Assembly (NCBI GenBank): GCA_014874295.1
Contig: JACWAL010000032.1
Location: 1 to 52,533, forward strand
Reading direction: 5' to 3'
Origin: Microcaldota archaeon
GTDB taxonomy: Archaea; Micrarchaeota; Micrarchaeia; Micrarchaeales; Micrarchaeaceae
DNA length: 52,533 nt
The notes beneath the pieces were generated by a model. The model was given only the letters and a program-made list of their open reading frames with translations. It was not told the DNA's origin and searched no databases. Shown here one piece after another: positions 249 through 47,153 of the stretch (positions are counted from its first letter, which is position 1; each line of letters begins with the position of its first letter). A program made the position numbers and the translations under genes.

Positions 249-941
249 ATGCCAAATTTAGAGAGCTTAACGAAATCTCAAAGAAAGCCGTTAATTGCAT
301 CATTTCTTAAAGAGATGTATTTTGACAGAAGAAGCACCATTTTTAAATGGGCGAGGCTCACAAAACAGACACCACTAATAGAAACAAAATTCTTAGGACA
401 AAACCTCATATCTTTGATAACAGGCATAAGTGGGCGTGGCTCGGCTGCAAGAGGAGATGACCTCAGAGACGGTTCTGAAGTTAAAACCTGTAGTAGATTA
501 GACCAATTGAGCAAATGTAATGAATGCGGAGCGCATGTTACAGCAATAGAAGATAGATGTCCAAATTGTGGCAGTCAGAATATCATGCGAATGACCGATT
601 CGCATTGGATTTTTACTATAAATACTCAAGCCAAAAGAAACAAGATACTTAATGCCACTCCAATGATTTATCTTCTTTTGATAGATGGATACAGACTAAA
701 AAAGAAGGATTTAGCAAAGTTTAGTGTATGGGTCATTAATCCCAAAACGGATACTTTCTTCAGAAATGGATATATTAATGATTATTATCGTAATAATTTT
801 ATAAGAAGAAGAAACGCCAGAGAAAATCCTGCACCCATGAATGTTCACCCACGAAGTCCAAAATTTGGCAGAACAGCAGCACGATTAATCTTTGAGGCAA
901 CTATGACGGATAAAGGAAAGGTAGTAATCTCAAGATTTTAG
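249..941 (+). CDS. Type II restriction endonuclease, PD-(D/E)XK fold with zinc ribbon, MamI-like
   Basis: This 230-aa protein has the catalytic signature D74-G-S-E77-V-K79, preceded by a Gly/Arg-rich stretch (GRGSAARGDDL, 62-72) and followed by a four-Cys zinc ribbon (C90, C93, C104, C107). That arrangement matches what I recall of the MamI restriction endonuclease family, whose prototype recognises GATNNNNATC; the family call is from memory, not from a search. It is expected to cut unmodified DNA. The gene is convergent with the methyltransferase and their stop codons overlap by 4 nt, the usual pairing of a restriction-modification system. The subterminal repeats lie directly upstream, so the element end probably supplies its promoter. 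The actual recognition site is not predictable here. Confidence 0.7.
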   Translation: MPNLESLTKSQRKPLIASFLKEMYFDRRSTIFKWARLTKQTPLIETKFLGQNLISLITGISGRGSAARGDDLRDGSEVKTCSRLDQLSKCNECGAHVTAIEDRCPNCGSQNIMRMTDSHWIFTINTQAKRNKILNATPMIYLLLIDGYRLKKKDLAKFSVWVINPKTDTFFRNGYINDYYRNNFIRRRNARENPAPMNVHPRSPKFGRTAARLIFEATMTDKGKVVISRF

Positions 942-13719: not shown

Positions 13720-13768
13720 AAGGGGGCGAATTTCCTCGGCGCAATGCCGAGTGGCTTGAGTGGTCCAG

Positions 13769-15262: not shown

Positions 15263-15270
15263 GTGTATTC

Positions 15271-28915: not shown

Positions 28916-29782
28916 TCACCCGCCGTGCACCACGCCTGCAGAAACGTTTTCGGGAGGCGCAGCATTTACGTAGCTCCCACCCGCGTTCCGCGACATCGAA
29001 ACGGCGCCAAGCTTTACAAAGATGCCGATGCTCTCGTTGGCGACGTACGGGACAAGCTCGGCGGTCACATTGAGCGGCGCGTAATACCTGTCAGACAGAC
29101 AAGCCGTGACATTGTAGTCGTAGGATGCCCTCCCTGTGCCGAAGAAGCTGTATACGACCTGCCCGAAGAACGAATTTGCAGTCATGGCAGAGCTGTCCAA
29201 TGTTCCATTCATCGACACGAGCGTGCAGTTCTCCCCATTGTATTCCCTTGTACCTATCACGCTCGCTGTCCCGTTCACTCTTCCCGCAAGATTGGAAACG
29301 AGCCCTCCAAGCCCGACGACTTCTTGGCCTTTATTGATCGATTTCGTGCAGTTGAATGTGCTTGTCTGATTGCCGGACATTACACTATACCTGTTGCATG
29401 AGTAGGAAGTGCCATTGCTCAGGTCCGCTCCCATGAATTCCACGTTTATGCCAGCCTGCGGCACCGCCATGTTGAGGTACATCCTCGAGGAGCCATGGTA
29501 CGAGGCATATCCGGCGCGCACGGGTATGTGCAGCTGCAGAGATCCAAGGGAAATGTCGTAAATCGACACATTCATGAAACCAGAGTAAGTGACATTCAGC
29601 CCATCAACAGAGTGCACGCCAGTTACGTCAGCGGAAAGCATGCCATACGGTGTCCTGTTCGCCTGGTTTGAGAACAGTTCAGCCAAAGGCTTTGCATGGG
29701 TCGTCAGGCCGGGCTGCAACAATCCGTTTGAAAGCGCGAAGTAAGCCGCAACGACTGCTATACACACCGCAGTAGCGACCAA
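28916..29782 (-). CDS. Secreted or membrane-anchored glycoprotein-like protein
   Basis: A 288-aa extracellular protein of mainly beta structure, with more than ten Asn-X-Ser/Thr sites and three or four Cys. The start is uncertain: TTG 29782 gives a hydrophobic N-terminus, but the same frame continues upstream through a basic stretch (DRKRKKGRRVAAIYVI) without ATG or GTG before an in-frame stop. That basic-hydrophobic order is what a signal anchor needs, so a non-canonical start or a sequence error may hide the true beginning. It is leftward and separated by 209 nt from the giant-protein genes. No family recognised. Confidence 0.7.
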   Translation of the reverse strand: MVATAVCIAVVAAYFALSNGLLQPGLTTHAKPLAELFSNQANRTPYGMLSADVTGVHSVDGLNVTYSGFMNVSIYDISLGSLQLHIPVRAGYASYHGSSRMYLNMAVPQAGINVEFMGADLSNGTSYSCNRYSVMSGNQTSTFNCTKSINKGQEVVGLGGLVSNLAGRVNGTASVIGTREYNGENCTLVSMNGTLDSSAMTANSFFGQVVYSFFGTGRASYDYNVTACLSDRYYAPLNVTAELVPYVANESIGIFVKLGAVSMSRNAGGSYVNAAPPENVSAGVVHGG

Positions 29783-29991: not shown

Positions 29992-32900
29992 ATGCTGCAG
30001 CTGAAGACCTTCCTTCTACTGGCTTTGGTCGTATTGCTCTTGACTATGCTGCAGGCTCAGTTCACATCCGCGCAGTCAATACCAAAATGCACACCTGAGC
30101 ACTGTACAATCACGAAGTGTATATCGCTGAGCGATGTCACAGGGTTCCTGCAGAAGCTCCTCGGCTGGTTAACCACCCTTGCCAAAGCGATAAGCAAAGG
30201 ATTCTCTGGTTTGGTCAAGGCCCTGGGCAGTCTTACCGTTAGCGCCCTGATAAATAACGCGCTCAGCTCGCTCAGCAGCTTGTTCAATAACATACTCAAC
30301 CTGTTCGGCCTCGACATTGGCGGGACGGCCAGCAGCATAGGAAACTTCCTCACACAACAGATCCTTGGGGGCATACCGGACCTTCTCTCCACTCTCGTAG
30401 ACAACGTGCTCAGTTCCATAGGGAACATGGGAAGTCTGCTTGGCAACTTCGCCAGCAGCATACTGAGCATGCTCACGAAACTTGTCAGTGACTTCAGCGT
30501 GTTCAACGGCGTGGTGACGCTGCCTGCCAAGCTCCTCTCCGGGATAGGGAACCTACTGAGCGCCATAGGGACGGACCTGTCTAACCTATTCAACGAAATC
30601 ATGACCGGCATCTCTAACATCAGCAAGGCGATAACCAGCGCGCTCGATGACTCCAATTCGATAGTCAGCAACGCCATCGCGATAAAGATAAGCCTTGTGA
30701 ACCTCTGCAGTAGCTCAAAGTCCGTGCTCGTCGCACACACCGACGTGTGCGCCAGGGTTGACAAGCTCTCCGCAGACATAGCGCTGGTCCAGAGCGATAT
30801 CAACGAGATAGCCCCTCTGGCCTCGCAGATAAAGAGTAGCATAACCTCCATACCTTCAAACATACTTAGCTTGCAGAACATCGCACTGCCACAGGTCGTG
30901 CCGAGCCTAAGGGGGCAGATAAATGCGTGTTTGGTGCCGAGTGGGACCCTCGATGCCGGTGTACAGATAAGCGGACTGACCTCGAGCATTGATCTGCTGA
31001 CCAACAACCTCGGCAGAGTGATCAACAAGCTTTCGGGCTACTCATTCTCCAGCAGCTATGCGGGCACGGCCGAGAGCCTGCAGCTGTCCGGCATCGCTGC
31101 CGTGACGACTGCCGACGGCAGCAATTCACTGGTGCCGGTCGCAGGGACAGCACAGCTGCAGTACACGGTCACGTTATCTGGCCCTGTTTCAGTCACTGGG
31201 AGCACATTCTCAGGTCAGATACCAGCGACTATATCCGGCCCGGTTACCGGGACCGTAATCGGCATCATTAATGACAATGGCCAGTCCGAATCGATCACCG
31301 GCACAGTGACGGACAACGTCAACGGGGTCGTCGTGCCAGTGACAGTGTCAGGGACATTCATATCCATTATACCGGCAAGCCTTGTAATTACAGATTCACA
31401 TGGGAACACATTTACTGTCAGTACAGCGACAGGCACGGTTACGGAAACTCCTCCAGGACCACATCCCGTGCCCGTCACGTATGGTGTTGGGGCCGCCCCG
31501 ATGGCAATCACGGAAGACGGAAGTGGTAACCTTTGGGTGGCTGATTCGGGCGACAACGCAGTCACTAAGCTTTCGCCGAGCGGAACCACGTATTCGATAG
31601 CCGGCAAATTCAGTGTAGGCAAAGACCCGTCAGCGATAATGATTGGCTCGGACGGCAACGTCTGGGTCTACAATAGCGGCGACAACACCGTGACCGTGCT
31701 TTCCGAGGCTGGTACTGTCATCGCGACATACCCGTTCACGAACGGTGTACCAACCGTCACGAGCGTGCAGGCGTCATTCCAGAGCTATCCTGTGTTCATA
31801 GCAGGGGCGGACTTCGAAGGCCAGGTCACAAGCGGCCCCAATCAGGGAGAGCTCGTCTATGGCACGCTCTCGGATTACACATCGCTTGTAGGTTCGGCGG
31901 CATTGGCCAACGGCTACATCAACATAGCTGGAGGCACCTCGACAGACACTGCAACGGTCACTCTCTCTGGCAGCGTTCCGATTCAACCGGGCCGGTCTAC
32001 CATATCCGAGGGCCTCATAGTCGCGCTCAACAACCTGCAGGCTGACGTGGAGGATATAATGCTTACGGTAAAAACCGACCAGTGCGCGCCCGGGTATATA
32101 ACTGTCAATGAAGGCACGTTGTGGACCCCAATATACCTGACGAATGGAGGTCAGCCGGCGTGCCCGAACCTCCCCAACGCCGACCAGGCGGTGCTCAGCG
32201 GGATAAGCGCCGTGACCGGGACGATAAACGACCACATCCTCACGCCAGGCGTGTCCGCGATGCAGAAGCTCAGCTTGCTGAGCAACAACATAAACAAGCG
32301 CTTCGGCTTCATAGGAAAGGCAATACATATTAATCCCTCAATTAAACTGCCGGCCAGTGTGAGCGGGCCTATGAGCAGTGACATACTCCAGATGGCCGGC
32401 ACGATAAGCGACTTCGCAAATACGATATCCACTCCTGCGAATGAGCTCACGGCGCTCTCCGATAACATAATACGCTTGGGCAACCCGCTCGATAAGCAGA
32501 GCTATAACATCGGCGTCGCGGCGGGCATAGTCGGCGCTGTGGCCAGCATACCGAGCAGTTACGACGGCTACTACAAGCCACCGTACAACTACCAGCCTGG
32601 GAAGGTGCCGATAAGCTACGACGTGTGGCATGCAATGAAGATAATAGAGGATGCGTGCTCCACAGGCCCAGGCGGTGATTCGTGGTCAGGGCTGATTGAC
32701 CAGGTGTCGGACACCGGCATGGCCGAGACTGTGTGCTACATATACGACGTCTTCCAATACCACGATCAAAACATACAGGATGACCTCCACGCGATCCAGC
32801 TGAACATCAGCGACATCCGTTACTACGACACCATGGCAGGCGTGTATGTATCCAACCTTGCGCACGACCTGCATGCAATACAGCTCAACCTCTCGCGCAT

Positions 32901-34428
32901 GAGCGCAGACTTGGACTCAATAGGCACGATAATCAAGGGCCAGACGATAAATGGCGCGAAGTGCAGCGTGCTCAGCAAGGATATAACCGACATACAGGCA
33001 TCAGCGAACAACCTCAACTACATGGCAACGAGCCCATACGGCATACAGTTCGACATCAACGGCTTTATCAGGAACATAAAAGCCGCCATACAGGTTATAC
33101 CTCGGGATATAAGGAACATAATAGCTGCGCTGGTCGACATAGTGAACCAGATAAAAGACTTTATGCAAACCGCGTCGGAGCTCATATCCAGCGCAACGCA
33201 GAACAACAACCCGATACCGAACCCCGGGATATGTCTGACAGTTTCGTACCTGGTGCAGAACACCGGATTCCCGGGCGCTGGTTATGGTTGCATAGTGAAC
33301 GCGAACAACCTCCTCATACCGATACAGGTGCAGGCGGAGGTCGCCGAGGTGCCAACGCTGACCGCGTCAGTCAAGGCGATGCAGGGCCTGCAGGCACAGC
33401 TTACTGGCACAGGCAGGACCGATTCCGGTTCGACCTTTGCGATTACGGGAACAGTGCCAGTGACCATAAACTCCGGGGCGACGCTGACGCTTACGGGTCC
33501 ACTCACAGCCTATCTTAGCGGGACAGTCTATGTGCCCTACTCGATATATAGCGTCAGCGTAACCGGTACGGTCACCGGTACGCTCACCGGCACGGTCAAG
33601 GCCACAGGTCTCGCCGGCCTGACAGGCTCGATAGGAGTGGGTGCGACTGGCGCAGTCTCCAACGGCTACCCTGGCGCGGGTACTGCGGGCTCCATCACAG
33701 GAGGGTTCTCGCTTAGCGGCTCCTACACAGCGTCCTACACAGTAACAGGCACCGCGACGGCTGCAATAACGTGCACCGCGCCAATAGTCGTGGGTGGCAA
33801 GCTCTCTATAAGCAACTTCGACAAGAGCTCCTGCCGCGTGTCACTAAGACTAGGGGCGGTCAAGCTGGCTGCGGCCTCTGGAGGCATACAGTACAAACTG
33901 CAGGGGCCGCTCATGAACGCGAGGTTCGAGAGCAACGGTGGCAGGGTATATTCCATCACGGGCACGTTGACGACGGTGCTGTCCCCATCGACGCTCAGCC
34001 TCCAGACGAGTCATGCAACGCTCAACATCATCACTCCAGAACTAGAGTACCTTAACGTGAAGCTGGGTCGCTTCAACCCCGTGGACGCGCTGGTGGGCAG
34101 CTGCCTCATAAGCACCGCGCTCAGCGTGTGGCCTTCCTCCACCCCGAACCTCAAGGCAGGGAAGCCCATACCGGCAGATTCCACAGTGTCGATAGGGCAG
34201 TCTGTGGTCTTGACGGCCAACGCGTCCGGAGGATTGCCCCCATACAGCTACCAGTGGTACACCGGCACGTTGCCTGGCGTGTGCAGCACCCCGTTAATCG
34301 GCGCAACGCAGCCGACCTACGCGGCCACTCCCGCAGTCACTTCGTATTACTGCTATGCGCTGGCGGATCAACAGTCCTCGCCTCCGATCCGCTCAACCAT
34401 AGCGAATGTGATAATGAGCTCCACGTGA
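29992..34428 (+). CDS. Giant secreted protein, 1478 aa, with beta-propeller and TG-rich repeats
   Basis: A signal peptide (LLLALVVLLLTMLQAQFTSA) is followed by about 300 residues of amphipathic helices rich in Leu, Ser, Asn and Gly (LSSLFNNILNLFG and similar). Two related beta domains rich in TGTV-type strands lie at nt 31080-31440 and 33340-33790. NHL-like propeller blades (GAAPMAITEDGSGNLWVADS, then DPSAIMIGSDGNVWVYNSGD) lie at nt 31480-31720, and a final Ig/PKD-like domain (LPPYSYQWYTG) ends the chain. There is no membrane anchor. It probably forms part of the cell surface, together with the still larger protein encoded 48-84 nt downstream. The parts suggest adhesion; the function is unknown. 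Confidence 0.85.
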   Translation: MLQLKTFLLLALVVLLLTMLQAQFTSAQSIPKCTPEHCTITKCISLSDVTGFLQKLLGWLTTLAKAISKGFSGLVKALGSLTVSALINNALSSLSSLFNNILNLFGLDIGGTASSIGNFLTQQILGGIPDLLSTLVDNVLSSIGNMGSLLGNFASSILSMLTKLVSDFSVFNGVVTLPAKLLSGIGNLLSAIGTDLSNLFNEIMTGISNISKAITSALDDSNSIVSNAIAIKISLVNLCSSSKSVLVAHTDVCARVDKLSADIALVQSDINEIAPLASQIKSSITSIPSNILSLQNIALPQVVPSLRGQINACLVPSGTLDAGVQISGLTSSIDLLTNNLGRVINKLSGYSFSSSYAGTAESLQLSGIAAVTTADGSNSLVPVAGTAQLQYTVTLSGPVSVTGSTFSGQIPATISGPVTGTVIGIINDNGQSESITGTVTDNVNGVVVPVTVSGTFISIIPASLVITDSHGNTFTVSTATGTVTETPPGPHPVPVTYGVGAAPMAITEDGSGNLWVADSGDNAVTKLSPSGTTYSIAGKFSVGKDPSAIMIGSDGNVWVYNSGDNTVTVLSEAGTVIATYPFTNGVPTVTSVQASFQSYPVFIAGADFEGQVTSGPNQGELVYGTLSDYTSLVGSAALANGYINIAGGTSTDTATVTLSGSVPIQPGRSTISEGLIVALNNLQADVEDIMLTVKTDQCAPGYITVNEGTLWTPIYLTNGGQPACPNLPNADQAVLSGISAVTGTINDHILTPGVSAMQKLSLLSNNINKRFGFIGKAIHINPSIKLPASVSGPMSSDILQMAGTISDFANTISTPANELTALSDNIIRLGNPLDKQSYNIGVAAGIVGAVASIPSSYDGYYKPPYNYQPGKVPISYDVWHAMKIIEDACSTGPGGDSWSGLIDQVSDTGMAETVCYIYDVFQYHDQNIQDDLHAIQLNISDIRYYDTMAGVYVSNLAHDLHAIQLNLSRMSADLDSIGTIIKGQTINGAKCSVLSKDITDIQASANNLNYMATSPYGIQFDINGFIRNIKAAIQVIPRDIRNIIAALVDIVNQIKDFMQTASELISSATQNNNPIPNPGICLTVSYLVQNTGFPGAGYGCIVNANNLLIPIQVQAEVAEVPTLTASVKAMQGLQAQLTGTGRTDSGSTFAITGTVPVTINSGATLTLTGPLTAYLSGTVYVPYSIYSVSVTGTVTGTLTGTVKATGLAGLTGSIGVGATGAVSNGYPGAGTAGSITGGFSLSGSYTASYTVTGTATAAITCTAPIVVGGKLSISNFDKSSCRVSLRLGAVKLAAASGGIQYKLQGPLMNARFESNGGRVYSITGTLTTVLSPSTLSLQTSHATLNIITPELEYLNVKLGRFNPVDALVGSCLISTALSVWPSSTPNLKAGKPIPADSTVSIGQSVVLTANASGGLPPYSYQWYTGTLPGVCSTPLIGATQPTYAATPAVTSYYCYALADQQSSPPIRSTIANVIMSST

Positions 34429-34512
34429 TTGATATGCGCGCAGTACAGAAAGGTTTGATGACGGCGACAAACTGTTATGAATGTTGCAGATAATGCTTTA
34501 CAGGTGCAAGGA

Positions 34513-37500
34513 ATGAAAGGGCTGCATGACAGTGGGCTTGCGTACGCGGCGCTCACCGCGCTTGCATTGGCCACGCTGGTACTCGGCTTCACTTATGCTA
34601 CCGGCAGCGGCCAGGCATTGCCGATGCAGTCCCTGCCAAATATTCCAGGCTTCGACAAGGTAAGCGTCCCACAGGGGATCATAGGGCTCAGTGCCATAGC
34701 GGTGCCGCCTGAATCGGCACTGCAGCAGTATAATGACAAGAACGCAGGCTCGCTCCTCACCTGCCCGAACTCGCCGAACAGCGACATACTGAACTACTTC
34801 ATGTCTGGCGATCACATCGGGGGGGATGCATGCCTCGCAGACCTGCCTGAGCTCTACACGCTGATAAGCGCGAGCGGCCTCGCATCATATGATACGAGCC
34901 TGCGGGGAGGAGGCCAGGAGCACTTCGAGAGCATACTCAAGTCTTTTGCCACATCGATACTGGAAACCGCGGCGAAAGGCAACCCAAGCGCCGTGATTTC
35001 GTTTACCCTCCTCGCAACCAGCCCAGCGAGCGTCAATAAGATAAGCTTCTCTGTTGGCATACAGCCGCAGACCAACGCCAATTTCCTCGGGCAGGTGTAC
35101 AACCTGCTGTCAGAGAGCCAGCTGAAGGTGATTACCAACCCCCTTTACCTTGGGGGCGCAGCTTCTGTGACGCTGCAGAACCTCGGCTATTCCGGGCAGG
35201 TCAGCACGCCATCAGGCAACGTCATATCGAGCGCCTATAACACGAACTCATTCATCTTTCAGAGTCCCCCAGCGTCGTTCCAGAAGGGCTTGTGGTCATG
35301 GACTGCACAATACGTTGACCTGAGCAAAGTGGACGGCAGCTACCTCGATTATTCTTTGAAGCCCCAGAAAACCAACTACGTCGAGCTGAAGATCGGTATC
35401 GACCTGGCCAAGTCTATCGACGTGGTCGCCGGAGGACCTGTCTATACGAGCCTATTCACATGCACCTATCCATACTACTTCAGCTATAATGTGATCAACG
35501 CGAAGATGCAGAACATTGGCATACCCATACCTGCGGGCCTTTACGTGAACGGCAAGCAGGTGACTGACGTTGCAACGCAGTTCAACGATACATTCGCGCT
35601 CCAGTACAATGCACCCACCATAAAAACCTGGGCGGCCGCAAACATACTCCCTGTCTTCTATTACAACATAAGCATGCCAGCCTCGACAAGCAACCTCAAC
35701 AGCCAGATGAGCTATCTCAACCAGTCTTTCATGCTCTACAGCCCGCACAACTTCCTGCAGCCGAATGCCTTCCTAGACCCATACACTGTCGACCTGGGTT
35801 CGGGGCTCCTCTTCGCAGACACGAAGGGCAACCTCGCCGAGCTGCCGTACAATACTGTGGACTTGAATAACCTGGATACAAAGTCAATCGGCAGCATAAG
35901 TCCTATTTCAATGTTCATAGCGTCGATGTTCGGCTACGGTAAATCGGCTCTGACAGCATATGCTCAACAGTTCCTTGGCGGTGATACATCGCACATATCG
36001 CAGCAGAAGCAGCCGTTCGACCCTCTCGACCCCCAGACAATAATCGGGAAGTGTAATTACTATGCGCAACAGCATGAGGGATGTACCCAAGGGCCGGTGC
36101 AGATGGGCAGCCTGATAGGTATGTACATAAAGAACCCGACCTACATATACTCGGCGCCGAACGGCGACATTTATGTCATAAACTACTCTGAGAGCTGTGG
36201 CCTTTTGTGCATCAGCTCAACAGAGTCCGCAAGCCTCTTCGTGATGAGGTTCTACCCGTTCGGGCAGTTCAACCCACCAATGCCGATCCCCACGCCCATT
36301 GGGTCCGGGTTCACTCCGTTAGCGTTTGATAACCCAGCCGTCACCTCAACACCAAGCATAGCGATACCCAGTGGGACGAGCGACCATCCTGCCCTTGGTG
36401 GTACGTGGACAGTGAACCAGAAGTACATAACGGCCATAGATATAGGCCAGAGCATAGCAAGCATGCAGGCTTCGTGGGGCGGCGGAATACCTCCATATAC
36501 TGTGTCATGGACTTACGGAACTGATTCCAAAAACTGCGCTGCGGACACGGCCCTTGTTGAAACAGACAACGCCGGAGGAGCGATAACATCATCGATTCTC
36601 GTACCTCCGGACCCGTCAAACCCCACATACCCCGCAGACACCCCAGGTACCTACTATTATTGTGTCAGTGTATCTGATGCGTTTGGCTCCACGATCGTCA
36701 CGTCCAAGCCTTACGAGCTCCAGGTGAACAGCCCATTCGAACTTACTGGCAGCGGATACTCGCTGTCGCTCTCCCCAACGCCATACAGCGGCCCGTCACT
36801 GAAGCCGCCAGACTCCACAAGAATTCCGCCATTCCTGGGCGGCAACGTGGTGACGTTCGCGCAATCCGGGGCTTCGCAGACCGGCGTGACAGTGGGCTTG
36901 GCGCTTGGCTGGCAGGGTGGAACTCCCCCCTATACAATAACCCTTGAGGCCTCGCCGCCGCAAGGACCACGGAGCGATACCGGTACCTTCACCCCGGCAT
37001 TCGTGTCGTCTGTAGGGTCAGCCCCCTGTGGCAGCGAGATAAACCCTGCAGCCCCACAGACTATAATAAACAAGCTACAGACAATAGGAACAAGCGACCC
37101 CGGCGGGCCCGTCACCACGATGCTAATGACACCACAGCCCGATCCATCTGGAACCGTGACGATTACTACGTGGGTCGCTGGCAGTAGCGGCGCCCCATCA
37201 GCAACCTCCACTAAGACAATCAGCGGCTCGATATACAGTTCAGCGTACATGTGCGCCTACATCTCTGACGCGACCGGCATGACCGTCAACACCATAAACT
37301 ATGCCAATCCCGACTGGCGGACATATTATAAGGTCGAAATACTCTCCGGGGCAAGCACGGGCGGCACTGGTAGTAGGGGGAGGGGGCTTCCGATAAACAT
37401 ACAGAGCACCGCAGTTAATGCGACGCCTGTCGTCCAGGAAGGCCAATCGCAAATTCCCGATGCCGTACAAGGGAGCACGCAGCAATTCGTAACTTCCACA

Positions 37501-40500
37501 ACCATGACGACCGTGTCCGCGCCTAAAATGAACCCCCCGAACCCAGGTCTTCCGACGTGCACGCCAGCGCAGATAAACGCAGGGCTGCAGGGCATAATAT
37601 GCAACGCACCCACTTCCATCAGCACCAGCACGATACAGCAGCAGTTCCTCTCCAACACATCGCCGTGCGAACAGACTGACAGCGTCTGTCAGCAATGGAT
37701 TAACACATGGAAAGGCTACTGGTACAACCTCACAGTCGACCAGTCTGGGCAGCTCTACATAATCGGTGGCATAACGCTATCGCAGAAGCACAGCACCTTC
37801 TTCGGCCTGTTCAGCAGTTTCAACAAGTACAACCCCGGCAGCACGGGCACGACGCAACCCACCCCACAGCAGCCCGCCGCGACCTGTCCAGACCAGAGCT
37901 TCCAGGGTGATACAAGCACTCTGCTGACGCTCGCGCAGCTCGAGGCGTGCGCTTCCAATGCAGGGTTCACCGGTGACCAGCTGACCGCGATAGTCTCGAT
38001 AGCAGCACAGGAGAGCTACGGTGGCATGCCAGGTGCAACGGGTAAGGGAATACAAGCGAACTGTAAGGCTGAGGGCATACTGCAGGAAGGTTCATGTGCC
38101 AAGTCTCCAGGCGAGGCATTCCTATTGCCGAACTACCATCCGAGCACGTGCAGCACCTATAAGGGCAACGGCAAGGGCGATGCCAGCGACGACTGGAGCG
38201 GTATCTATTACAACCCCATGTGCGCCTTCCAATGGGCGTACGCGTACATAAACAGCCCATCTGTGCAGACACTAAGCTGCGCATCGTCAACCAACGGCGG
38301 TCCGTTGAACTGCTTCTGGGGCAGCTACCAGACTGGCGCGTATTGCAAGTATGCTCCCGTGTCATATTCTGGCTATCAGTGCACCCAGGGAGGAGGCCAG
38401 CTGCAGTGGTCTGGCACCAACCAGCAACCAACTCCTAACTTCGGTAACGGCGGCGGTATCTTCGATTTTATACCGAGCTCCGTAGCTGTCGACGATTCGG
38501 GCGACGTCTTCATAGTCGGCTTAGGATTGGACGGCAACACGATGATGGGAATAATGACACCAAACGGAATGGCACAGTCGTGGTCGCTGTCGTTCAGCAA
38601 CCCTTACCTTGACAAGAATTTCAAGCCGTCTACGCTGTTCGCCGTCTCTCCTGGCGGCCAGTTCGCGTATCTCGCCGGCAGGTCGGGTGGCAACGAATAC
38701 AACAACGGCAACATACTCATATTCAACACGCAGACGCACCAGCAGGTGAGCGCAATAGACCTGTCGTACTCATCGAACACCTACAACCTCGACATATCCA
38801 AGTACCTAAAGGACGGCGGGCCGTTCGGCAACCAGGCTCTCTCCAATGCGTATAGCGATTTCCTGCCAAACAACGACATCGATTCCTACCATGTACCGAT
38901 AGCGATGACGGAGTCGCACGGTACCTTGTATATCCTTGACCTGTGGTCGTTCAAATATGCCTCACAGACATACCCGAACGGCTTCCCGTCGAGGATACTG
39001 ATGCTAAGGGCATTCGATCAGAACGGCACGGAGGTGAAGGTGAACCCATCGCTCATCAATGACGTGATACCCACAGGTACAGGGGCACAGGCCGTATACC
39101 AGCCGGGTGCGCCGACGCTCTACCCGCCTTACGGCTGGCCGCTGTCGGTCAACATCTCAGGGGTAAAGGCGGAGAACCCGGACCCGACCGGCATCTATGA
39201 CACGCTGACCTACTGCCTGGCTGGATGCACGAAGATCCTGGTACCACCGACAAACCAGTACGCATACAATAATTATCCGCCGATAGGGCCATGGATCCCC
39301 AACCATGGCGATATAACGCAGTCCATCTCCACGATACTCTCTGGAGGGGATGAGAGCAGCAGCACGGTACTTGGGTTCCAGGCTAACTATGAGAATATCG
39401 GGTACTTGCTGGCGCACGTTACAAGCGATATCAACCCCTATTCCGAGTTGCTCACCATGAAGATAAGCATGAGCAATTACACCAACCCGTCGTTCTTAGC
39501 CGGCACGCCGTTCGCCTGCTACAACACATACGACCCGAAAAAGAAACCAGATGGGTACGTTACCCCCTGCGTTAGCTACTCTTCGGCAACTAAGGCGGGC
39601 GAGATCCTCGACGGCATGCAGCCGCCGCTGCTTGGCGTGCCCGACGCGTTCAAGTACGTGGAGAGCCAGGGGTCGCCCGAGCAGTACGTGACGCTCCCGG
39701 TTGCTGTCGGTGCCGCTTCGGCGATGGTGAACGGTGCGCTTACCAAACAACAGGCACAGCAGACCGCAACGACCGGCTGCACTCCCGGCTCGCCAGGATG
39801 CTCGACCTTCTCAATAAGCAGCATCACATCGAGTACAGGTAGCGCGTCTTCAGGCATAACGTCCGCGCTGGTGCCGGAATACCTGAAGAGCAAGATATCT
39901 GGTTACGTGATGGTGCCTTATATGGTATCATATGACCTGCTCGAGAAGTACTCAAAATCGCCTAAGGGGGAAGGCTGCTATGGCAAATCCACATCGGACT
40001 GTCCAACCGCCAGTCCATTGGAGATAACACTACCGGTGCAGCCGCCATCGACCGCCCCGATTCCAGAAGGAGAGCTCACGGACACCCAGTGCAACTGGGG
40101 TACTGAGGTGGTGCCGAAACTCGCGTGCACAGACCCGAACAGCCCGTGCAAATTCAAGGTTTATGGCTACTCACTATCCAAGCCCGAGCCCGCAGTTGCT
40201 AACGCCGTCATCGAAGGCGGACCGACATACCTTGTATACAACAATACGAACTTCAATGACTTCTACAAGCCAAACATATCCGATGCTGGGGCGATACTAC
40301 CCCCGAACATAGGCTTCAACGTCTATTCCAACAGGCAATTCGGCGAGATATACGTCAACCAGAGCGTCGCCCCGAACCAGGACTACATGGACTACGTAAA
40401 CAACCTGCCGTTCAACCTCCCGGGGATAAGCTCGCTGCTGATCGGAGCGCCGCTGCCCTACTCACCGGGCAAGCTGCTCGACAGCCAGCTCGTCGTCAAC

Positions 40501-42069
40501 CAGTCGCATCTATATGATTACGGCGCGCTATTCTTCTACCACCTGGTTTTCAACCCATTCGGATTTGTCGGCCCGGTTTACGAGCTCGAATCTCAAATAG
40601 TGGACCAGTACACGGGTTTCGCAGACCTGCCAGTGACGAAACCGACGAACCAGCCCCCTGCGGACGTGCTGAATTCGTTCCCTCTATTTTACTTCATGAA
40701 GGACACGGCCTCTCTCGCGATGCTGACAGGCCAACTCCTGCAGTGCTTGGGTAACAACCCGTCGCAATACACAGCGCAGTGCAACGCATATATGTCATTC
40801 TCTGGCGTGCAGCAGAGCAAGCCTGTGCAGCTGCAGCTCTTCGATGAGATAAAGACCATGTACAATCAGTATTCGCTTACGCTCAACTGGTCGAAGAACA
40901 ATAACGTGCTGGGATACAACAGGCTCATATACACGTTCGTGGACAGGTTCAACAACACAATAACCGCGCCGCTCGACGTTGACATCGCGAACGTCACGTC
41001 GATAACTCTCAACGCAACGGCCTCCGTGAGCACGTCCAACCCCAACCAGACGATAGTGACCGTCAACGGCATAGCCGGGTACTATCAAGGCCTGCTAAAC
41101 AACCAGTTCGCCCCGCTGCCCCAAAACTCACCGATATACCTTTACTACGACCAGAACATCAACTACTACAACCCAACGTACTTCACGCCCGGAATATCCG
41201 CGCTCTCATACAGCTACATAAACTATGCACAGCAATGCGCTTTCGGAGGGCAGAATGGCTGCATCCTCGCCAACCCGCTCAACCTGACGCAGGACAAGTC
41301 GTTTATGGGTGTATACACACAGGCGTCTTATCCGACATACAACTCCCCGGTTGCCTGCGCACCACAGGCCAACAGCCTCCTCGACGCGTCCTACCTGAGC
41401 TCGTTGTATGAGTGCAACATATACGGTAATTACAACCTGCCGAAGACATGCGGCGACGTGCAGAGTAGCGTATCTCAGCCCCAGGATTGCGCCGCGCAGG
41501 CCCAGCAACAGTTCGGCCATATGAGCCCGCAGTGCGTCGCGTACAACGACGCCCAGCTCTGCAACAAAGCTAATGCGGGAGGATACTCCCTCTTCTGCGT
41601 GCCGAACTTCGCCAATGGCACCGGGACGCTCACGCCGCAGATAGGGCTGCTTCCCTCCAAGACACACACCATAACGCGGGTGGAGGATTCGGTGATAAAC
41701 GGTGGCACCGTGCAGACCGACAAGAACGGCGAGTTCAGCTACCAGTTCACCGTCTGCGGCACCGGCTCAGGCAGGGTGCTCGCAAACTACTATGGCGCGC
41801 CATTCCCACAACCTGGCAATGTCATACAGCCGCCTCTCACGCTGTCGAACGTGCAGGGCTCGTCGCTGAAGCCGTCGCAGCTCGGCAGCTACGCGGAATA
41901 CTCATACACGTTCGCACCCGCGAGCGCTGCAGGGTCGTTCCTCCTCGGCAGCTACCAGCTCAGCTTCGGCACCCTCGAGGCACCTATTGCCGTCGCAATC
42001 GTGACTGCCACTGCAATCGTCATCTTCCTGCGTGGCAGGAGGAAGGGCGCATCTAGCGGCAAGGCGTGA
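34513..42069 (+). CDS. Giant membrane-anchored surface protein, about 2518 aa, with lysozyme-like domain
   Basis: An N-terminal signal helix (YAALTALALATLVLGFTYA) and a C-terminal anchor (PIAVAIVTATAIVIFLRGRRK) leave about 2450 residues outside the cell. Ig/PKD-like domains occur near nt 36470-36730 and 36890-37300. A lysozyme/transglycosylase-like domain lies at about nt 37914-38350, with the candidate catalytic Glu at 38011 in IAAQESYGG. Propeller-like repeats (SSVAVDDSGDVFIVGLG) follow at 38470-38760. Many Cys pairs suggest disulfides. ATG 34513 follows CAGGTGCAAGGA; an in-frame ATG at 34477 is possible but lacks a ribosome site. Likely a cell-contact protein; similarity to named families is by motif only. 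Confidence 0.8.
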   Translation: MKGLHDSGLAYAALTALALATLVLGFTYATGSGQALPMQSLPNIPGFDKVSVPQGIIGLSAIAVPPESALQQYNDKNAGSLLTCPNSPNSDILNYFMSGDHIGGDACLADLPELYTLISASGLASYDTSLRGGGQEHFESILKSFATSILETAAKGNPSAVISFTLLATSPASVNKISFSVGIQPQTNANFLGQVYNLLSESQLKVITNPLYLGGAASVTLQNLGYSGQVSTPSGNVISSAYNTNSFIFQSPPASFQKGLWSWTAQYVDLSKVDGSYLDYSLKPQKTNYVELKIGIDLAKSIDVVAGGPVYTSLFTCTYPYYFSYNVINAKMQNIGIPIPAGLYVNGKQVTDVATQFNDTFALQYNAPTIKTWAAANILPVFYYNISMPASTSNLNSQMSYLNQSFMLYSPHNFLQPNAFLDPYTVDLGSGLLFADTKGNLAELPYNTVDLNNLDTKSIGSISPISMFIASMFGYGKSALTAYAQQFLGGDTSHISQQKQPFDPLDPQTIIGKCNYYAQQHEGCTQGPVQMGSLIGMYIKNPTYIYSAPNGDIYVINYSESCGLLCISSTESASLFVMRFYPFGQFNPPMPIPTPIGSGFTPLAFDNPAVTSTPSIAIPSGTSDHPALGGTWTVNQKYITAIDIGQSIASMQASWGGGIPPYTVSWTYGTDSKNCAADTALVETDNAGGAITSSILVPPDPSNPTYPADTPGTYYYCVSVSDAFGSTIVTSKPYELQVNSPFELTGSGYSLSLSPTPYSGPSLKPPDSTRIPPFLGGNVVTFAQSGASQTGVTVGLALGWQGGTPPYTITLEASPPQGPRSDTGTFTPAFVSSVGSAPCGSEINPAAPQTIINKLQTIGTSDPGGPVTTMLMTPQPDPSGTVTITTWVAGSSGAPSATSTKTISGSIYSSAYMCAYISDATGMTVNTINYANPDWRTYYKVEILSGASTGGTGSRGRGLPINIQSTAVNATPVVQEGQSQIPDAVQGSTQQFVTSTTMTTVSAPKMNPPNPGLPTCTPAQINAGLQGIICNAPTSISTSTIQQQFLSNTSPCEQTDSVCQQWINTWKGYWYNLTVDQSGQLYIIGGITLSQKHSTFFGLFSSFNKYNPGSTGTTQPTPQQPAATCPDQSFQGDTSTLLTLAQLEACASNAGFTGDQLTAIVSIAAQESYGGMPGATGKGIQANCKAEGILQEGSCAKSPGEAFLLPNYHPSTCSTYKGNGKGDASDDWSGIYYNPMCAFQWAYAYINSPSVQTLSCASSTNGGPLNCFWGSYQTGAYCKYAPVSYSGYQCTQGGGQLQWSGTNQQPTPNFGNGGGIFDFIPSSVAVDDSGDVFIVGLGLDGNTMMGIMTPNGMAQSWSLSFSNPYLDKNFKPSTLFAVSPGGQFAYLAGRSGGNEYNNGNILIFNTQTHQQVSAIDLSYSSNTYNLDISKYLKDGGPFGNQALSNAYSDFLPNNDIDSYHVPIAMTESHGTLYILDLWSFKYASQTYPNGFPSRILMLRAFDQNGTEVKVNPSLINDVIPTGTGAQAVYQPGAPTLYPPYGWPLSVNISGVKAENPDPTGIYDTLTYCLAGCTKILVPPTNQYAYNNYPPIGPWIPNHGDITQSISTILSGGDESSSTVLGFQANYENIGYLLAHVTSDINPYSELLTMKISMSNYTNPSFLAGTPFACYNTYDPKKKPDGYVTPCVSYSSATKAGEILDGMQPPLLGVPDAFKYVESQGSPEQYVTLPVAVGAASAMVNGALTKQQAQQTATTGCTPGSPGCSTFSISSITSSTGSASSGITSALVPEYLKSKISGYVMVPYMVSYDLLEKYSKSPKGEGCYGKSTSDCPTASPLEITLPVQPPSTAPIPEGELTDTQCNWGTEVVPKLACTDPNSPCKFKVYGYSLSKPEPAVANAVIEGGPTYLVYNNTNFNDFYKPNISDAGAILPPNIGFNVYSNRQFGEIYVNQSVAPNQDYMDYVNNLPFNLPGISSLLIGAPLPYSPGKLLDSQLVVNQSHLYDYGALFFYHLVFNPFGFVGPVYELESQIVDQYTGFADLPVTKPTNQPPADVLNSFPLFYFMKDTASLAMLTGQLLQCLGNNPSQYTAQCNAYMSFSGVQQSKPVQLQLFDEIKTMYNQYSLTLNWSKNNNVLGYNRLIYTFVDRFNNTITAPLDVDIANVTSITLNATASVSTSNPNQTIVTVNGIAGYYQGLLNNQFAPLPQNSPIYLYYDQNINYYNPTYFTPGISALSYSYINYAQQCAFGGQNGCILANPLNLTQDKSFMGVYTQASYPTYNSPVACAPQANSLLDASYLSSLYECNIYGNYNLPKTCGDVQSSVSQPQDCAAQAQQQFGHMSPQCVAYNDAQLCNKANAGGYSLFCVPNFANGTGTLTPQIGLLPSKTHTITRVEDSVINGGTVQTDKNGEFSYQFTVCGTGSGRVLANYYGAPFPQPGNVIQPPLTLSNVQGSSLKPSQLGSYAEYSYTFAPASAAGSFLLGSYQLSFGTLEAPIAVAIVTATAIVIFLRGRRKGASSGKA

Positions 42070-42112
42070 GCGTCATTTATTTATAGCTGCAAATCACAGA
42101 TATAATGATGCA

Positions 42113-43621
42113 ATGATTGCGGTTTATGCGCTCGCCGTACTACTGAGCTTCAACGCAATATACGCGCTGATACCGATAATCGTTATCATAATCCTCATAT
42201 CGGCTGCGGCAGGATTGTCGCGCGGCTACGACATATTCAGGATATTCGGCATCGGTTCGCTGCTCGGATTCTCGGTCGGCACCCAACGTGGCCTGAGGGG
42301 CACTGCATACATGGGTAGGGCAGGCCATCAGAGGAGCAAAAAACCATTCGGTGGTTACCACGCGAGAATCCCGAGGGGAACGCTCGCGAAGAGGGTGCCC
42401 GGCAATGTGTTCGGTCCGGGAGGAGATGTCGCGGCGGTTGGAAAGGGTATTCGGAAAGTCTACAATAGGGCTGCGCTGACTCAGAACCGCTTCAACACCA
42501 GGAATAGGGCCGCAGCGGCGATAATGCAGGCAAGGCAAGCCAACGCGACGCAACTCGCAGTTGGAGCAGGCACAGCCGCAACCGCAGTACGCACCGCTAC
42601 TCCTCTTGAATCCAGGCTCCAGTCCAAGATTGGCAAAAAGATTGCGAAGAGCAGACGCATCAACAAAAAGATTGCGAACTTGGAGGAAAAGATGGGTGAC
42701 GAGCGCGAGAGGATACTCTTCGCAAGGGGCTCAATCTACTTGAAAAAGGCCGTATATGACAAGGAAGCGAAGGCCATAAAATATACGTACCAGAAAGCCA
42801 CACTCATGCGCTCGGTGCCCGTTGTAGGTGCCGTGTTATCGATAATAGGGCCGAGCTCGCTCGCAGGCGAGAAAAAACGACTCGAAAACAAGAACGCAAG
42901 GCTTGCGACAAGGATACAGGTGCTCAACCAACGCCGCATAAAGGCCGGCGTAGATAGGGAAGAGTGGGCTGCTGCCATGTCAGCGGCAAAGCTGGCGCTC
43001 ATACCACCTCCTGGGGTAGCTCCTGTGGTGTCGACAGGTCTTGGTCTAAACCGCGCCACGGTGATGAGATTAGGCGGTTACTTGTTCAACGCCATGGAGT
43101 ACGCTACGGACAAGCAGCGGAGGTCGGAGATGCGGCAGGAGGGCAAGTCTGCCCGGCAGAGGGAAGTTGCGTTTGCCGGTTCATTCTTGGAAAAGAAGGA
43201 TGACGAGCTCAAGAGGATGGAAGATGAGCACACCGCTCGGCGGAAGAACATAGAACGGCTGCGGAACGCTGAGAGAACGAAGGAGAACCAGAAGGAGCTA
43301 GACGACGAAATCAAGAAGGACGCAGAGGCGCAGAAGGAATATGAAGCCGCTGCCGCTGCCCACGAGAGGAACATGGGCCACTTCTCGTCGATACAGCGCT
43401 ATTTCGGCAAGCTGGAGGAAACGCATGAGCAGCGCGCAGGGATCAAGCGGGTGACCGGGGCGATCAAGGACTATGCGCAGACAGTGGCATATGTGAACGC
43501 CGTGAACCACTACTATTACTTCCAGAACGAGCACAAGCAACATTTTTACCCCGGGTTCCTGAGGCCCAAACCAATCAAGTACGTGCCGGGGATAAGGTCC
43601 CCGCCCCCTTCTGAGGCATGA
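42113..43621 (+). CDS. Membrane-anchored coiled-coil protein
   Basis: A 502-aa protein. Two closely spaced N-terminal helices (AVYALAVLLSFNAIYAL, then IPIIVIIILISAAAGL) anchor it. The remainder is strongly basic (residues 60-160), with coiled coils at about 180-215 and 325-440 and a Pro-rich end. The long soluble part is probably cytoplasmic because it follows a hairpin anchor and is Lys/Arg-rich. ATG 42113 is chosen because a TATA box (CATTTATTTATAGC, 42073-42086) lies about 30 nt before. It follows the giant gene by 43 nt. It may tie the surface complex to the inside of the cell (inference). Confidence 0.75.
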   Translation: MIAVYALAVLLSFNAIYALIPIIVIIILISAAAGLSRGYDIFRIFGIGSLLGFSVGTQRGLRGTAYMGRAGHQRSKKPFGGYHARIPRGTLAKRVPGNVFGPGGDVAAVGKGIRKVYNRAALTQNRFNTRNRAAAAIMQARQANATQLAVGAGTAATAVRTATPLESRLQSKIGKKIAKSRRINKKIANLEEKMGDERERILFARGSIYLKKAVYDKEAKAIKYTYQKATLMRSVPVVGAVLSIIGPSSLAGEKKRLENKNARLATRIQVLNQRRIKAGVDREEWAAAMSAAKLALIPPPGVAPVVSTGLGLNRATVMRLGGYLFNAMEYATDKQRRSEMRQEGKSARQREVAFAGSFLEKKDDELKRMEDEHTARRKNIERLRNAERTKENQKELDDEIKKDAEAQKEYEAAAAAHERNMGHFSSIQRYFGKLEETHEQRAGIKRVTGAIKDYAQTVAYVNAVNHYYYFQNEHKQHFYPGFLRPKPIKYVPGIRSPPPSEA

Positions 43622-43632
43622 GGTGATGTTCC

Positions 43633-44403
43633 ATGCAACAGCATGGCTATGAGGATGTGATGGACGCTCATTACGGCATGATAAGCACGGAGCAAGCCAT
43701 GGGAATTGCCGCCGCGCATGAAGACGCTGCTGGCAAGGCGCCAGAGGCGAACGACATAACAACGTGCCGTGCGCTGCTCGCCTTCATCGCGACTAACAAG
43801 TCGGCGGGCCAGCAGGCGTACGTGGTTAACGTAAAGGATAGGGTGTACCGCGTCTTCAACGCGACAAAGCGCGACGAGAAATCAGAGAGGTACAGGACGG
43901 TCGTGCTCGGCAGCGAGGGTTATACGATCCCAATACGCGTGTTCGGCACTGCATCCGATCACATCGACGACTCGATGGTGTGCAGGGGAGACATGCTCTT
44001 CGTTAAGGGCGCGGCGCTTGACATAAAATCAGAGTCACTGAAAGCGACAAAAGGCACGGTCATAACAAAGCTGTCCGCTTCAGCCGTAGGGGCTGTATCT
44101 GATTTCTCGTCGCTGGTGGACGGCCAGAAGAGCATCGACGTCAAAGGCATGGTTGTTGAGATGGGGCAGATAAGATACGTGGCAAGGCTTGGCGACTCAG
44201 AGAAGGTGGCGGTGTCGGATTGCGTACTCAGCGACGGCACGAAGACAATGCGCGTGTCGATGTGGGGTTCATCCGCAAACGCGACCCAGTCTGTGAGGAT
44301 AAATGACACAGTAAGGATTGAATTTTGCGGCGTGAGATCACGCAACGGAGAAACGGAGCTGTACGCAAACGACTTGTCAAGGGTGCTCGTGCTGAAGGCT
44401 TAG
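43633..44403 (+). CDS. OB-fold protein resembling RPA-type ssDNA-binding proteins
   Basis: A 256-aa protein with two OB-fold-like halves. The first covers about residues 50-150. The second, about 160-256, reads IDVKGMVVEMGQIRYV, then DCVLSDGTKTMRVSMWG, then NDTVRIEFCGVRSRNGETEL, the strand order of replication protein A domains. No zinc finger is present. Such proteins bind single-stranded DNA in replication and repair. The ATG follows AGGTGATG. It lies 11 nt after the coiled-coil membrane protein gene, an odd operon partner, and converges with the AAA ATPase gene, sharing a 4-nt stop overlap. Confidence 0.8.
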   Translation: MQQHGYEDVMDAHYGMISTEQAMGIAAAHEDAAGKAPEANDITTCRALLAFIATNKSAGQQAYVVNVKDRVYRVFNATKRDEKSERYRTVVLGSEGYTIPIRVFGTASDHIDDSMVCRGDMLFVKGAALDIKSESLKATKGTVITKLSASAVGAVSDFSSLVDGQKSIDVKGMVVEMGQIRYVARLGDSEKVAVSDCVLSDGTKTMRVSMWGSSANATQSVRINDTVRIEFCGVRSRNGETELYANDLSRVLVLKA

Positions 44404-47153
44404 CCACCCCTCCTGGCATACTTAGCTGCGAAGTCTGCGAACCCCTTCATCTCGGATGCAGGGGCGGAAGGCTCCGTGTCCTTCATTATTGACATTATGT
44501 CGTCCGTTGATATGCCCTGCTCAGCGCCGGTCCTGACCGTGCCCTCGAGTGCGGCTGTCTTTGCTTCCCTGCACACGCCAGCTATGTCCGCTCCCGTGTA
44601 GCCGTCGCTCGTCTTCCCGAGCGCATCGAAGTCGATTCCCTTGCTTGGCACCCCAGACAGATACTGCCTGAAGAGTTGTGCCCTCTCCTGCGCGTTCGGC
44701 GGCTTGACGAACACGACCTTGTCGAACCTTCCTGGTCTGAGTATCGCCGTGTCGAGCACCTCCGGCCTGTTCGTTGCGGCCACGACTATTATCCTGTACG
44801 ACTTCTCGAGCCCGTCCATCTGCTTCAGCAGCTCTGTAGTTATCTCAGAACTGATCCACCCGCCCGTGCCCCTCGTCGGAGCGAGCCCGTCTATCTCGTC
44901 TATGAATATCAGTGCGGGCTCATTCTCCCTTGCCAGGTTGAAGATTTCCTTTATGGCAGCGTTCGCCTTCTCAATACCCTCCTCTGCGAGGTTGGAGCCG
45001 TTTATGCCGAGCATCTTGACGCCCCTCATGCTCTCGTCATTCATTGCCGCCTTCATCAGCATCGTCTTTCCGTTGCCCGGCGGACCGAACATCAGTATGC
45101 CCTTTATTGCCTTGATCTTATACCTCTCCACCAGGTCTGGGTGTAGAAGCGGTATCTGTATTGCTTCTATTAGCGCCCTCTTGACGTTATCGAGCCCAAC
45201 GACGCTCGCCAGGACGACCGCTTCTGCCGCACTGTCCGCCGCCTCCGCGTGGACGCTCCTCTCGAACTTGATCCTGAACTTCTCGTAGGTCTCGAGCTGC
45301 GCGAGCGAAGTAGACGGCTTTAGCGACGTTATCGTGTCGAGTATGTTCTTCTGCGTTATCCTGAGTATCTTGTGCTCGTTCGCCGCCTCTTCCGCGACCG
45401 TCTGGGCGGCCGTGTTACATATCATCTTTATATCCGCGCCAGAATACCTCTCGGTCTTCGCGACTATCGCGCCTATGTCTACGTTATCGGCGAGCGGGTA
45501 TTTCTTCAGGTACATCTCGAAGATCACCCTTCTCGCCTTCGCGTCGGGCAGCGGCATATACACTATCTTGTCTACCCTGCCGGCACGTATGAGTGCAGGG
45601 TCGAGCAGGTCTGGCACGTTCGTGGCGCCCACGAATATGACCTTCTCTATCTTCTGAAACCCGTCGAGCTCTATCAGCAGCTGCGAGAGCGCCTTGCTCC
45701 TCTCCTCATCGGCGGACTTCTCCCTGCTCGCCCCTATCGCGTCTATCTCGTCGAAGAACAGCACGCATGGCGTGTGCTTCTTGGCGATGACGAATATCCC
45801 AGAGATCTTGCGCTCTGTCTCGCCCAGGCTTGCGGAGAGCAGATTAGAAGCCTTGACGTAGAAGAACGAGGCGTGTATCTCGTTCGCCAGCGCCCTCATC
45901 ATCATCGTCTTGCCCGTTCCGGGCGGCCCGAAGAATAGCAGGCCCTTGGACGGCGTTATGTTGTACGCCCTAGATATGCTCCTCGCCTCTATCGGGTCGA
46001 GCACGGCGTTCTTCAGCTCCCTCTTGGTGTTCTCGTAGTCGCCTATGTCCTTGAAACGTTCCAGGCTCGTGCCGAACTGCAGGTCCTCGAAGGCCTCACC
46101 GAACTTCATGCGCGTGTCGCTCTTCCTAACGTCAAGAGCCTTGACGATGTCTATGTCGTAGACCTGCAGTGCATAGACGAAGAATGGCCCTATTAGCACG
46201 CTTATCAGCATCATCACGAGCATGCCGAAGTCGATCGTTGCGCCGTACGTGAATGCAAGATAGGAGATGGGGTATATCGCAGCTATGAGGCTCGCCTCGA
46301 CCCCTCTGAATCGCGCCCTACTCTCGACGACGTACTCATCTATCGCGAGCGCAATGCCCAGGAGTATGGCGAGCTGCATAATGTAGATGAATTGGCTGGA
46401 CGTGAACGTCGCTATCGCGTACCCTACAACCCCGACGGAACCAATGAGCACCCCAGAATTAAATATATTATCTGCGACCAGGCTGAGAGTCGCAGGGAAT
46501 TCGTCAATGGAAGGCAGCGGCTTTCCAGGCGTGAGATACTGCGCCAGCTCTATGGAGTTGAGGTTCGTCGCATTGAGTGACGGACTGTAAATCATGTACG
46601 CGGTATTCCGCACGTTTGTCAGCCCGGAAAGGCTGATCACGCCCAGCGTGAACAGCAGAAGCATCACGATCTCTCTTTTCCTTCCGAGTATTAGGCTGGA
46701 GAGGGCTATCATAGGCACTATGAATATGTAGCCGAGCTGCGAGAATGCAAGCGCAACCGCCATTAGCGAGAACACGATGGTCCTGTAATGCATGTATCCG
46801 AATACGAGCGAGAACGTGACGATGAAGAGCGCGAGCAGCGCTATCGCTGGAGCCTGATAGAGCAACGCAGGCATCATCAGCGCAATCATCACTACGAGCC
46901 CGACGAACGGATGGTAAAGCGCAGCTATGAACACTATCGCGATGAATATTGGGGCCAGCAACCACGGGTAGAAGGGCACCGCGAAGAGTATGGCGATGAA
47001 GGCCAGCGTTATTATCACGGTGTCGAAAAAGGTGGGCCTCTGCGCGACCCCTATCGCGATGTCCTTGAGCCTGTAGAATGTGAGTGGGGCTATATACCTC
47101 CTCCTCAAGAACTCCGAGGTTTCTCTTTTGGGGGAGCCGCCTTTGGTTGCCAT
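44400..47153 (-). CDS. Membrane-embedded double-AAA+ ATPase (CDC48-like)
   Basis: A 917-aa protein. The first 310 residues contain eight or nine hydrophobic helices (FFDTVIITLAFIAILFAVPF and further). Then come two AAA+ modules: Walker A GPPGTGKT near residue 408 with Walker B LFFDEID near 463, and Walker A GPPGNGKT near 688 with Walker B FIDEIDG near 748. Both second-region homology arginines (RAGRVDK, RPGRFDK) are present. CDC48/VAT proteins have two AAA rings but a soluble N domain; here it is replaced by a membrane domain. No protease motif (no HExxH, no Ser-Lys dyad) is seen. It may extract membrane proteins. A TATA box (TTTATAAG, 47168-47176) gives a leaderless message. Confidence 0.9.
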   Translation of the reverse strand: MATKGGSPKRETSEFLRRRYIAPLTFYRLKDIAIGVAQRPTFFDTVIITLAFIAILFAVPFYPWLLAPIFIAIVFIAALYHPFVGLVVMIALMMPALLYQAPAIALLALFIVTFSLVFGYMHYRTIVFSLMAVALAFSQLGYIFIVPMIALSSLILGRKREIVMLLLFTLGVISLSGLTNVRNTAYMIYSPSLNATNLNSIELAQYLTPGKPLPSIDEFPATLSLVADNIFNSGVLIGSVGVVGYAIATFTSSQFIYIMQLAILLGIALAIDEYVVESRARFRGVEASLIAAIYPISYLAFTYGATIDFGMLVMMLISVLIGPFFVYALQVYDIDIVKALDVRKSDTRMKFGEAFEDLQFGTSLERFKDIGDYENTKRELKNAVLDPIEARSISRAYNITPSKGLLFFGPPGTGKTMMMRALANEIHASFFYVKASNLLSASLGETERKISGIFVIAKKHTPCVLFFDEIDAIGASREKSADEERSKALSQLLIELDGFQKIEKVIFVGATNVPDLLDPALIRAGRVDKIVYMPLPDAKARRVIFEMYLKKYPLADNVDIGAIVAKTERYSGADIKMICNTAAQTVAEEAANEHKILRITQKNILDTITSLKPSTSLAQLETYEKFRIKFERSVHAEAADSAAEAVVLASVVGLDNVKRALIEAIQIPLLHPDLVERYKIKAIKGILMFGPPGNGKTMLMKAAMNDESMRGVKMLGINGSNLAEEGIEKANAAIKEIFNLARENEPALIFIDEIDGLAPTRGTGGWISSEITTELLKQMDGLEKSYRIIVVAATNRPEVLDTAILRPGRFDKVVFVKPPNAQERAQLFRQYLSGVPSKGIDFDALGKTSDGYTGADIAGVCREAKTAALEGTVRTGAEQGISTDDIMSIMKDTEPSAPASEMKGFADFAAKYARRGG

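Follow-up and report, generated by a model that had tools for sequence, protein, structure and literature searches.

Two adjacent genes of a Micrarchaeales archaeon, P1 and P2, and the membrane protein gene P3 that follows them are best read as a Micrarchaeales-specific, envelope-spanning surface or adhesion module, which has a genetic link to an operon of type IV pilus-like kind and probably serves host contact. We put the probability of this reading at roughly 0.6.

Gene content of the cluster

The window, i.e. the whole stretch of DNA analysed (52,533 nucleotides), is contig C29 of genome G000, a 94.5% complete assembly of 823,640 bases in 42 contigs from the order Micrarchaeales (phylum Micrarchaeota). 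About 100 related genomes were compared overall, 99 of them in the searches for relatives of P2 and P3. The features on which the analysis rests are the following:

29992..34428, +: P1, N-terminal half of the giant; 1478 aa, signal peptide, secreted
34477..42069, +: P2, main part of the giant; 2530 aa, or 2518 aa if translation starts at the second ATG
34672..35961, +: conserved N-terminal domain of P2 (residues 66-495)
37804..38451, +: probable lysozyme-like (SLT/GH23-like) insert in P2 (residues 1110-1325)
38443..40386, +: conserved central region of P2 (residues 1323-1970), found order-wide
40831..42024, +: two membrane-proximal domains of P2 (residues 2119-2516) with invariant Cys/Gly and a terminal LSFGxI-TM
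42113..43621, +: P3; 502 aa from the ATG at 42113, within an ORF spanning 42032-43621
43633..44403, +: P4, RPA-like OB-fold ssDNA-binding protein, 256 aa; a neighbour outside the module
44400..47153, -: membrane protein carrying two AAA domains; its gene is the constant convergent neighbour of the P4 gene and likewise lies outside the module

The ATG at 42113 is most likely the true start of P3. All four ORFs, P1 to P4, lie on the forward strand with intergenic gaps of 48, 43 and 11 bp in turn, as the original prediction of four closely packed genes had it, and because homologues of each were found across tens of related genomes, they are not chance ORFs. The same prediction saw in the cluster a very large investment for a small genome. 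P1, P2 and P3 together occupy 13.5 kb of the 824 kb assembly. This share of 1.6% is ordinary within the group, since four Mia14 surface proteins account for almost 2.5% of that genome (PMC5498576) and an ORF of 5127 aa is present in Ca. M. harzensis.

Elsewhere in the window, the gene at 28916-29782 (minus strand), divergent from P1, encodes a protein of 288 aa that is secreted or anchored in the membrane and matches no Pfam family. The gene for RNA polymerase subunit B at 13760-17097 is broken into two ORFs of 500 and 608 aa, and at 938-3039 (minus strand), close to the contig end, a DNA methylase gene (N6_N4_Mtase) lies beside a DDE-transposase gene.

A giant surface protein encoded by two genes

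Because the region corresponding to P1 and P2 is a single ORF of 3942-4050 aa in both congeners (G001 and G002), P1 and P2 are taken to be one giant surface protein split in two. Residues 956-1173 of P1 align with residues 793-1001 of the G001 protein and residues 1-236 with residues 1-253 of the G002 protein, both within the N-terminal portion of the unsplit ORF, and P2 matches the remainder from its residue 46 onward. Otherwise P1 matches relatives solely in widespread Ig-like and propeller stretches; it contains a partial beta-propeller related to Vgb lyases (residues ~464-580) and a C-terminal Ig-like domain (residues ~1390-1465). Hydropathy indicates for P2 a signal anchor near residue 29, an ectodomain of ~2450 aa and a C-terminal TM near residue 2509, followed by a short basic tail, RGRRKG. 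The cluster had been described as encoding two secreted proteins of 1478 and about 2518 aa: both ORFs are real, but they are parts of one giant, and P2 is predicted to be membrane-anchored, not freely secreted.

A frameshift artefact is an unlikely origin of the split, as the Ig-like domain at the end of P1 looks complete, P2 has a signal anchor of its own, and the giant ORF of G001 contains no internal TM at the point where P2 starts. The arrangement looks like a genuine change of gene structure.

P2 orthologues were found in 73 of the 99 relatives. A profile of the giant C-terminal domain (A1), run against 295 genomes of the phylum, matched 105 of them, as a rule with a single copy each; 99 of these belong to Micrarchaeales, where they fall into two families, and 6 weak hits come from a further family of the class. 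Named database loci with this domain number 47, every one of them in a MAG labelled Micrarchaeota or, in a few cases, Marsarchaeota. Among the fetched examples, members of the wider family measure about 1600-4050 aa (median about 2040), and the conserved N-terminal domain gave HMM hits in nearly all. Neither the giant nor P3 matched any Pfam, NCBIfam or PHROGs family above cut-off, and a PDB fold search with the moderately confident AlphaFold model of the membrane-proximal part of P2 (pLDDT 76, pTM 0.73) gave no match. The giant is dispensable, because it was undetectable in the sampled genomes of genus g4, one of which (G005) still has P3 and the pilus operon.

P3, a membrane protein paired with the giant

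P3 has one N-terminal-proximal TM segment of the LSFxAIxxLIP.. type, followed by a basic, helix-rich tail of ~450 aa. The membrane segment is conserved in 77 of the 99 relatives, and 67 of the 99 have both giant and P3 (Fisher p=2e-8 and, for genomes at least 90% complete, p=0.002, both uncorrected for phylogeny). In 41 of these 67 genomes P3 lies 0.4-3.3 kb downstream of the giant C-terminal domain on the same strand, which amounts to 41 of the 48 genomes that carry both on one contig. The two are further apart on one contig in 7 genomes, and in 19 they sit on separate contigs, which say nothing about linkage; in Mia14 they are ~15 kb apart. The gene order proposed as a check of the original prediction is thus kept in relatives as far as giant and P3 are concerned.

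In genome G008 (locus L065, contig C7, 7012-17097, minus strand) giant and P3 are fused in frame into one ORF of 3361 aa, in which the final strand of the giant continues directly into the membrane helix and basic tail of P3. Because of this fusion, the giant is likely to lie outside and the P3 tail inside the cell. The cytoplasmic tail of the fusion protein also has a weak DnaJ-like match. An LSFGxI motif right before the helix is common to the C-terminus of the giant and the N-terminus of P3 (hhalign probability 77% over 22 columns, membrane helix included), a likeness that is only suggestive of a meaningful relation. P3 tails carry a net charge of +0.081 per residue, compared with 0.003 +/- 0.027 for conserved neighbour proteins.

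These features fit a cytoplasmic anchor within a real multi-gene envelope module, as had been proposed for the membrane protein. In the mechanism that we envisage, the giant would be held in the membrane by its C-terminal helix and would most likely expose adhesive domains on the cell surface, with which the cell would attach to a host or to biofilm. P3, with its single membrane helix, LSFGxI juxtamembrane motif and basic helix-rich tail inside the cell, would act as the cytoplasmic anchor of the giant and might pass force or position to the cytoplasm or the pilus base.

Linkage to a pilus-type motor operon

Many relatives share a typical gene order: a class III-signal protein, a KsgA-like protein (a label read off the sequence, without a profile), a metallo-beta-lactamase, the giant and P3, then three TrkA_N genes on the opposite strand, an M50 protease, a coiled-coil protein, a T2SSE ATPase, a small protein and two T2SSF platform proteins. 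The run of three TrkA_N-type genes, of which two have membrane segments, separates P3 from the pilus operon in a large part of the family (for example at L067, 11619-13544, and L088, 6422-8367). At the latter locus, in G005, the P3, pilus operon, KsgA-like and metallo-beta-lactamase genes are in their usual order with the giant missing between them.

The distance between P3 and the T2SSE ATPase gene was 2.4-6.4 kb in 12 fetched neighbourhoods, 4 of which (Mia14, G034, G003 and G005) have no adjacent giant. The search for linked ATPases suggested along with the original prediction was therefore positive. The ATPase of G000 is FlaI/TadA-like and the platform proteins of the operon are of the TadC type. 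In G000 itself the ATPase operon is intact on contig C37, with the giant on C29, and because of this separation the link between module and pilus in this genome is drawn from relatives. The module would accordingly be coupled genetically to an operon of a FlaI/TadA-type ATPase, two TadC-type platform proteins and a coiled-coil protein. When inspected by eye for a class III prepilin signal, the N-termini of giant and P3 appeared as ordinary signal or TM starts; the class III-type protein (cluster C4) is a neighbouring gene in relatives.

Relation to the S-layer

Could the giant instead be a structural component of the envelope, a second S-layer or sheath protein for which P3 is the membrane-cytoskeleton anchor, and no dedicated adhesin for host contact? 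Its single-copy, order-wide occurrence and C-terminal membrane anchor would suit such a role, as would its very low charge, its high Ser/Thr content and its Ig-like and propeller-type domains. On the other hand, no match to S_layer_C (PF05124) was obtained with P1, P2 or the M. harzensis giant, whereas a separate 992-aa protein of M. harzensis matches this family with E=7e-16 and is conserved in 52 of 60 relatives, G000 included (C36:24411-27305). Lattice proteins do not usually vary in length as the giant does (about 1600-4050 aa) or carry inserts that can be swapped, and the giant is absent from genus g4. We therefore consider a purely structural role possible, if on the unlikely side. An identification of the giant as the S-layer protein is rejected: because the separate S_layer_C protein is conserved, the giant appears to be an additional surface component, and in this respect the original contrast with a simple S-layer holds. 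In M. harzensis (G032, locus L169), the 5127-aa ORF (256225-271608) immediately precedes the S_layer_C gene (271,940-274,918), and the giant is encoded at about 400.57-406.61 kb.

A probable lysozyme-like insert in P2

The insert in P2 has a Glu in ...SIAAQES..., then GILQ and ...NP.C...A...Y. Its relatives, at roughly 32-50% identity, are found inside giants of the other family. In an alignment of 13 sequences (A3), E49, G70 and Q73 are invariant and make up a catalytic-type Glu and a G(I/L)xQ motif. Hits of Pfam SLT_3 to the insert family stayed below cut-off (best E=8e-5), and in P2 the cut-off was not reached. The best PDB profile hit was lysozyme C (E=0.009), and Foldseek returned a non-significant best hit (E=0.74) with a top list enriched in lysozyme-type enzymes. 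A tblastn search against phages for an origin of the insert gave no match. Taken together, a lysozyme-like fold is probable, as predicted from sequence.

These motifs and profile hits, and the large murein transglycosylase proteins of Woesearchaeota/Pacearchaeota, for which such a role has been proposed (PMC8204110), are the grounds on which the giant could be viewed as a surface enzyme cutting cell-wall glycans of bacteria or neighbours. We regard this as improbable: the domain is present in only 22 of 164 genomes of the order and is missing from most members of the giant family, both congeners and all other genomes of family f1, of which G000 is the sole carrier, and the known hosts of relatives, Thermoplasmatales such as Cuniculiplasma, have no cell walls (PMC5498576). 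Because it is optional, the insert is a decoration, possibly moved between giants, and not central to any apparatus. Of the lytic-type domain counted earlier among the components, the probable fold thus stands, below curated cut-offs, and the central role does not.

The OB-fold and AAA neighbours

P4 is closest to archaeal replication factor A. Its gene and that of the membrane AAA protein stand next to each other in convergent orientation in about 30 genomes, far from the giant: the pair lies at 182.7-186.2 kb in M. harzensis, with the giant at about 405 kb, and at 168-171.6 kb in G010, with the giant at 407 kb. Only in the genus of G000 does the pair adjoin the giant (G000, G001 and, judged from contig ends, G002), and a rearrangement in this genus probably placed the RPA-like and AAA genes alongside it. 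Presence of the OB-fold gene showed no co-occurrence with presence of the giant (Fisher p=0.82). The two proteins were rejected as partners of the giant on the grounds of synteny in relatives and this lack of association; from the genomes compared, their genes appear to be chance neighbours, not components. The constant neighbour of the OB-fold gene, which the original prediction had counted as a partner of the giant, is the convergent AAA gene. Independent occurrence in relatives, the outcome given beforehand as refuting the original prediction, was found for the OB-fold gene and refutes that part of it; the part concerning giant and P3, which share their occurrence, is not refuted.

The proposal that the four genes make up a contact-dependent DNA-transfer apparatus, with the OB-fold protein handling transferred ssDNA, had in its favour the tight same-strand packing with 11 bp between P3 and P4, a real RPA-like OB domain, the basic P3 tails and a gene order kept in G001 and compatible with the contig ends of G002, but it is largely refuted by the gene-order data and highly improbable, as a TraG/TraD-type coupling protein (PF12696) was also not detected in the 94.5% complete G000 assembly and no ssDNA-binding protein is linked to the surface genes in relatives. 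HerA-type DUF87 proteins are encoded elsewhere in G000, likewise in 14 of 14 control genomes. Apart from the proximity of the genes, DNA transfer by the cluster is unsupported.

Comparison with known systems

Giant surface proteins of DPANN archaea are known as such. The large surface proteins of Mia14 (Ca. Mancarchaeum; PMC5498576), e.g. MIA14_0152, share propeller and Ig/PKD-type domains with the proteins described here, and an orthologous 2805-aa giant is present in the Mia14 contig G011; from its gene position, this giant is presumably MIA14_0152 itself. The Mia14 paper, which also reports two type IV pilus systems, calls the surface proteins strain-specific, and the order-wide family, the P3 anchor, the linkage and the fusion are absent from it (PMC5498576).

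The SPEARE proteins of Nanohaloarchaeota, which are DPANN ectosymbionts, are likewise giant, mostly extracytoplasmic and adhesin-like with a C-terminal membrane anchor (PMC6642349), an architecture that P2 shares by hydropathy (TM near residue 2509). No LamG, serine protease or type III restriction-enzyme domain, which are SPEARE traits, was found in P1, P2 or P3, and the long cytoplasmic part is here usually a separate gene, P3. Very large extracellular proteins with a lytic-transglycosylase-like domain are also represented by fam00969 of Woesearchaeota/Pacearchaeota (PMC8204110), set beside the giant here by description; in our case, the domain is an occasional insert in a Micrarchaeota-specific scaffold.

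Archaeal type IV pilus loci resemble the neighbourhoods in relatives in their FlaI/TadA-type ATPase and TadC-type platform genes, and S-layer-like and coiled-coil accessory genes have been reported in them (PMC4858521). The present case differs in that giant and P3 match none of the searched families above cut-off and, in G000, are unlinked to the operon. The literature found, which covers the subject in part, describes neither the giant family across the order nor a cytoplasmic anchor paired with it, their fusion or a linked pilus operon.

Implications for host contact

Both Mia14 and Ca. M. harzensis have the giant and P3, and both associate with Thermoplasmatales hosts (PMC5498576, PMC8975820). 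The organism of G000, tiny and acid-loving, probably also lives on other archaea. At the contact sites of Ca. M. harzensis, cryo-ET has revealed filaments and surface remodelling (PMC8975820). These observations bear on how DPANN archaea attach to their hosts, and the literature found names no protein for the filaments or the remodelling.

With the RPA-like gene removed from the account of the cluster, giant and P3 are left as a pair of specific candidates that occurs throughout the order, has a motor operon linked to it and is found in both of the cultivated Micrarchaeota compared. A bolder reading, which we consider unlikely, is that they represent a new class of DPANN contact machine, in which an adhesive ectodomain of up to 4000 residues would be coupled mechanically via P3 to a pilus motor or, through the unusually basic tail, to the nucleoid; if so, host contact would be sensed or anchored across the envelope. 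Because the pair is present in M. harzensis and Mia14, its role can be tested by localisation in existing co-cultures.
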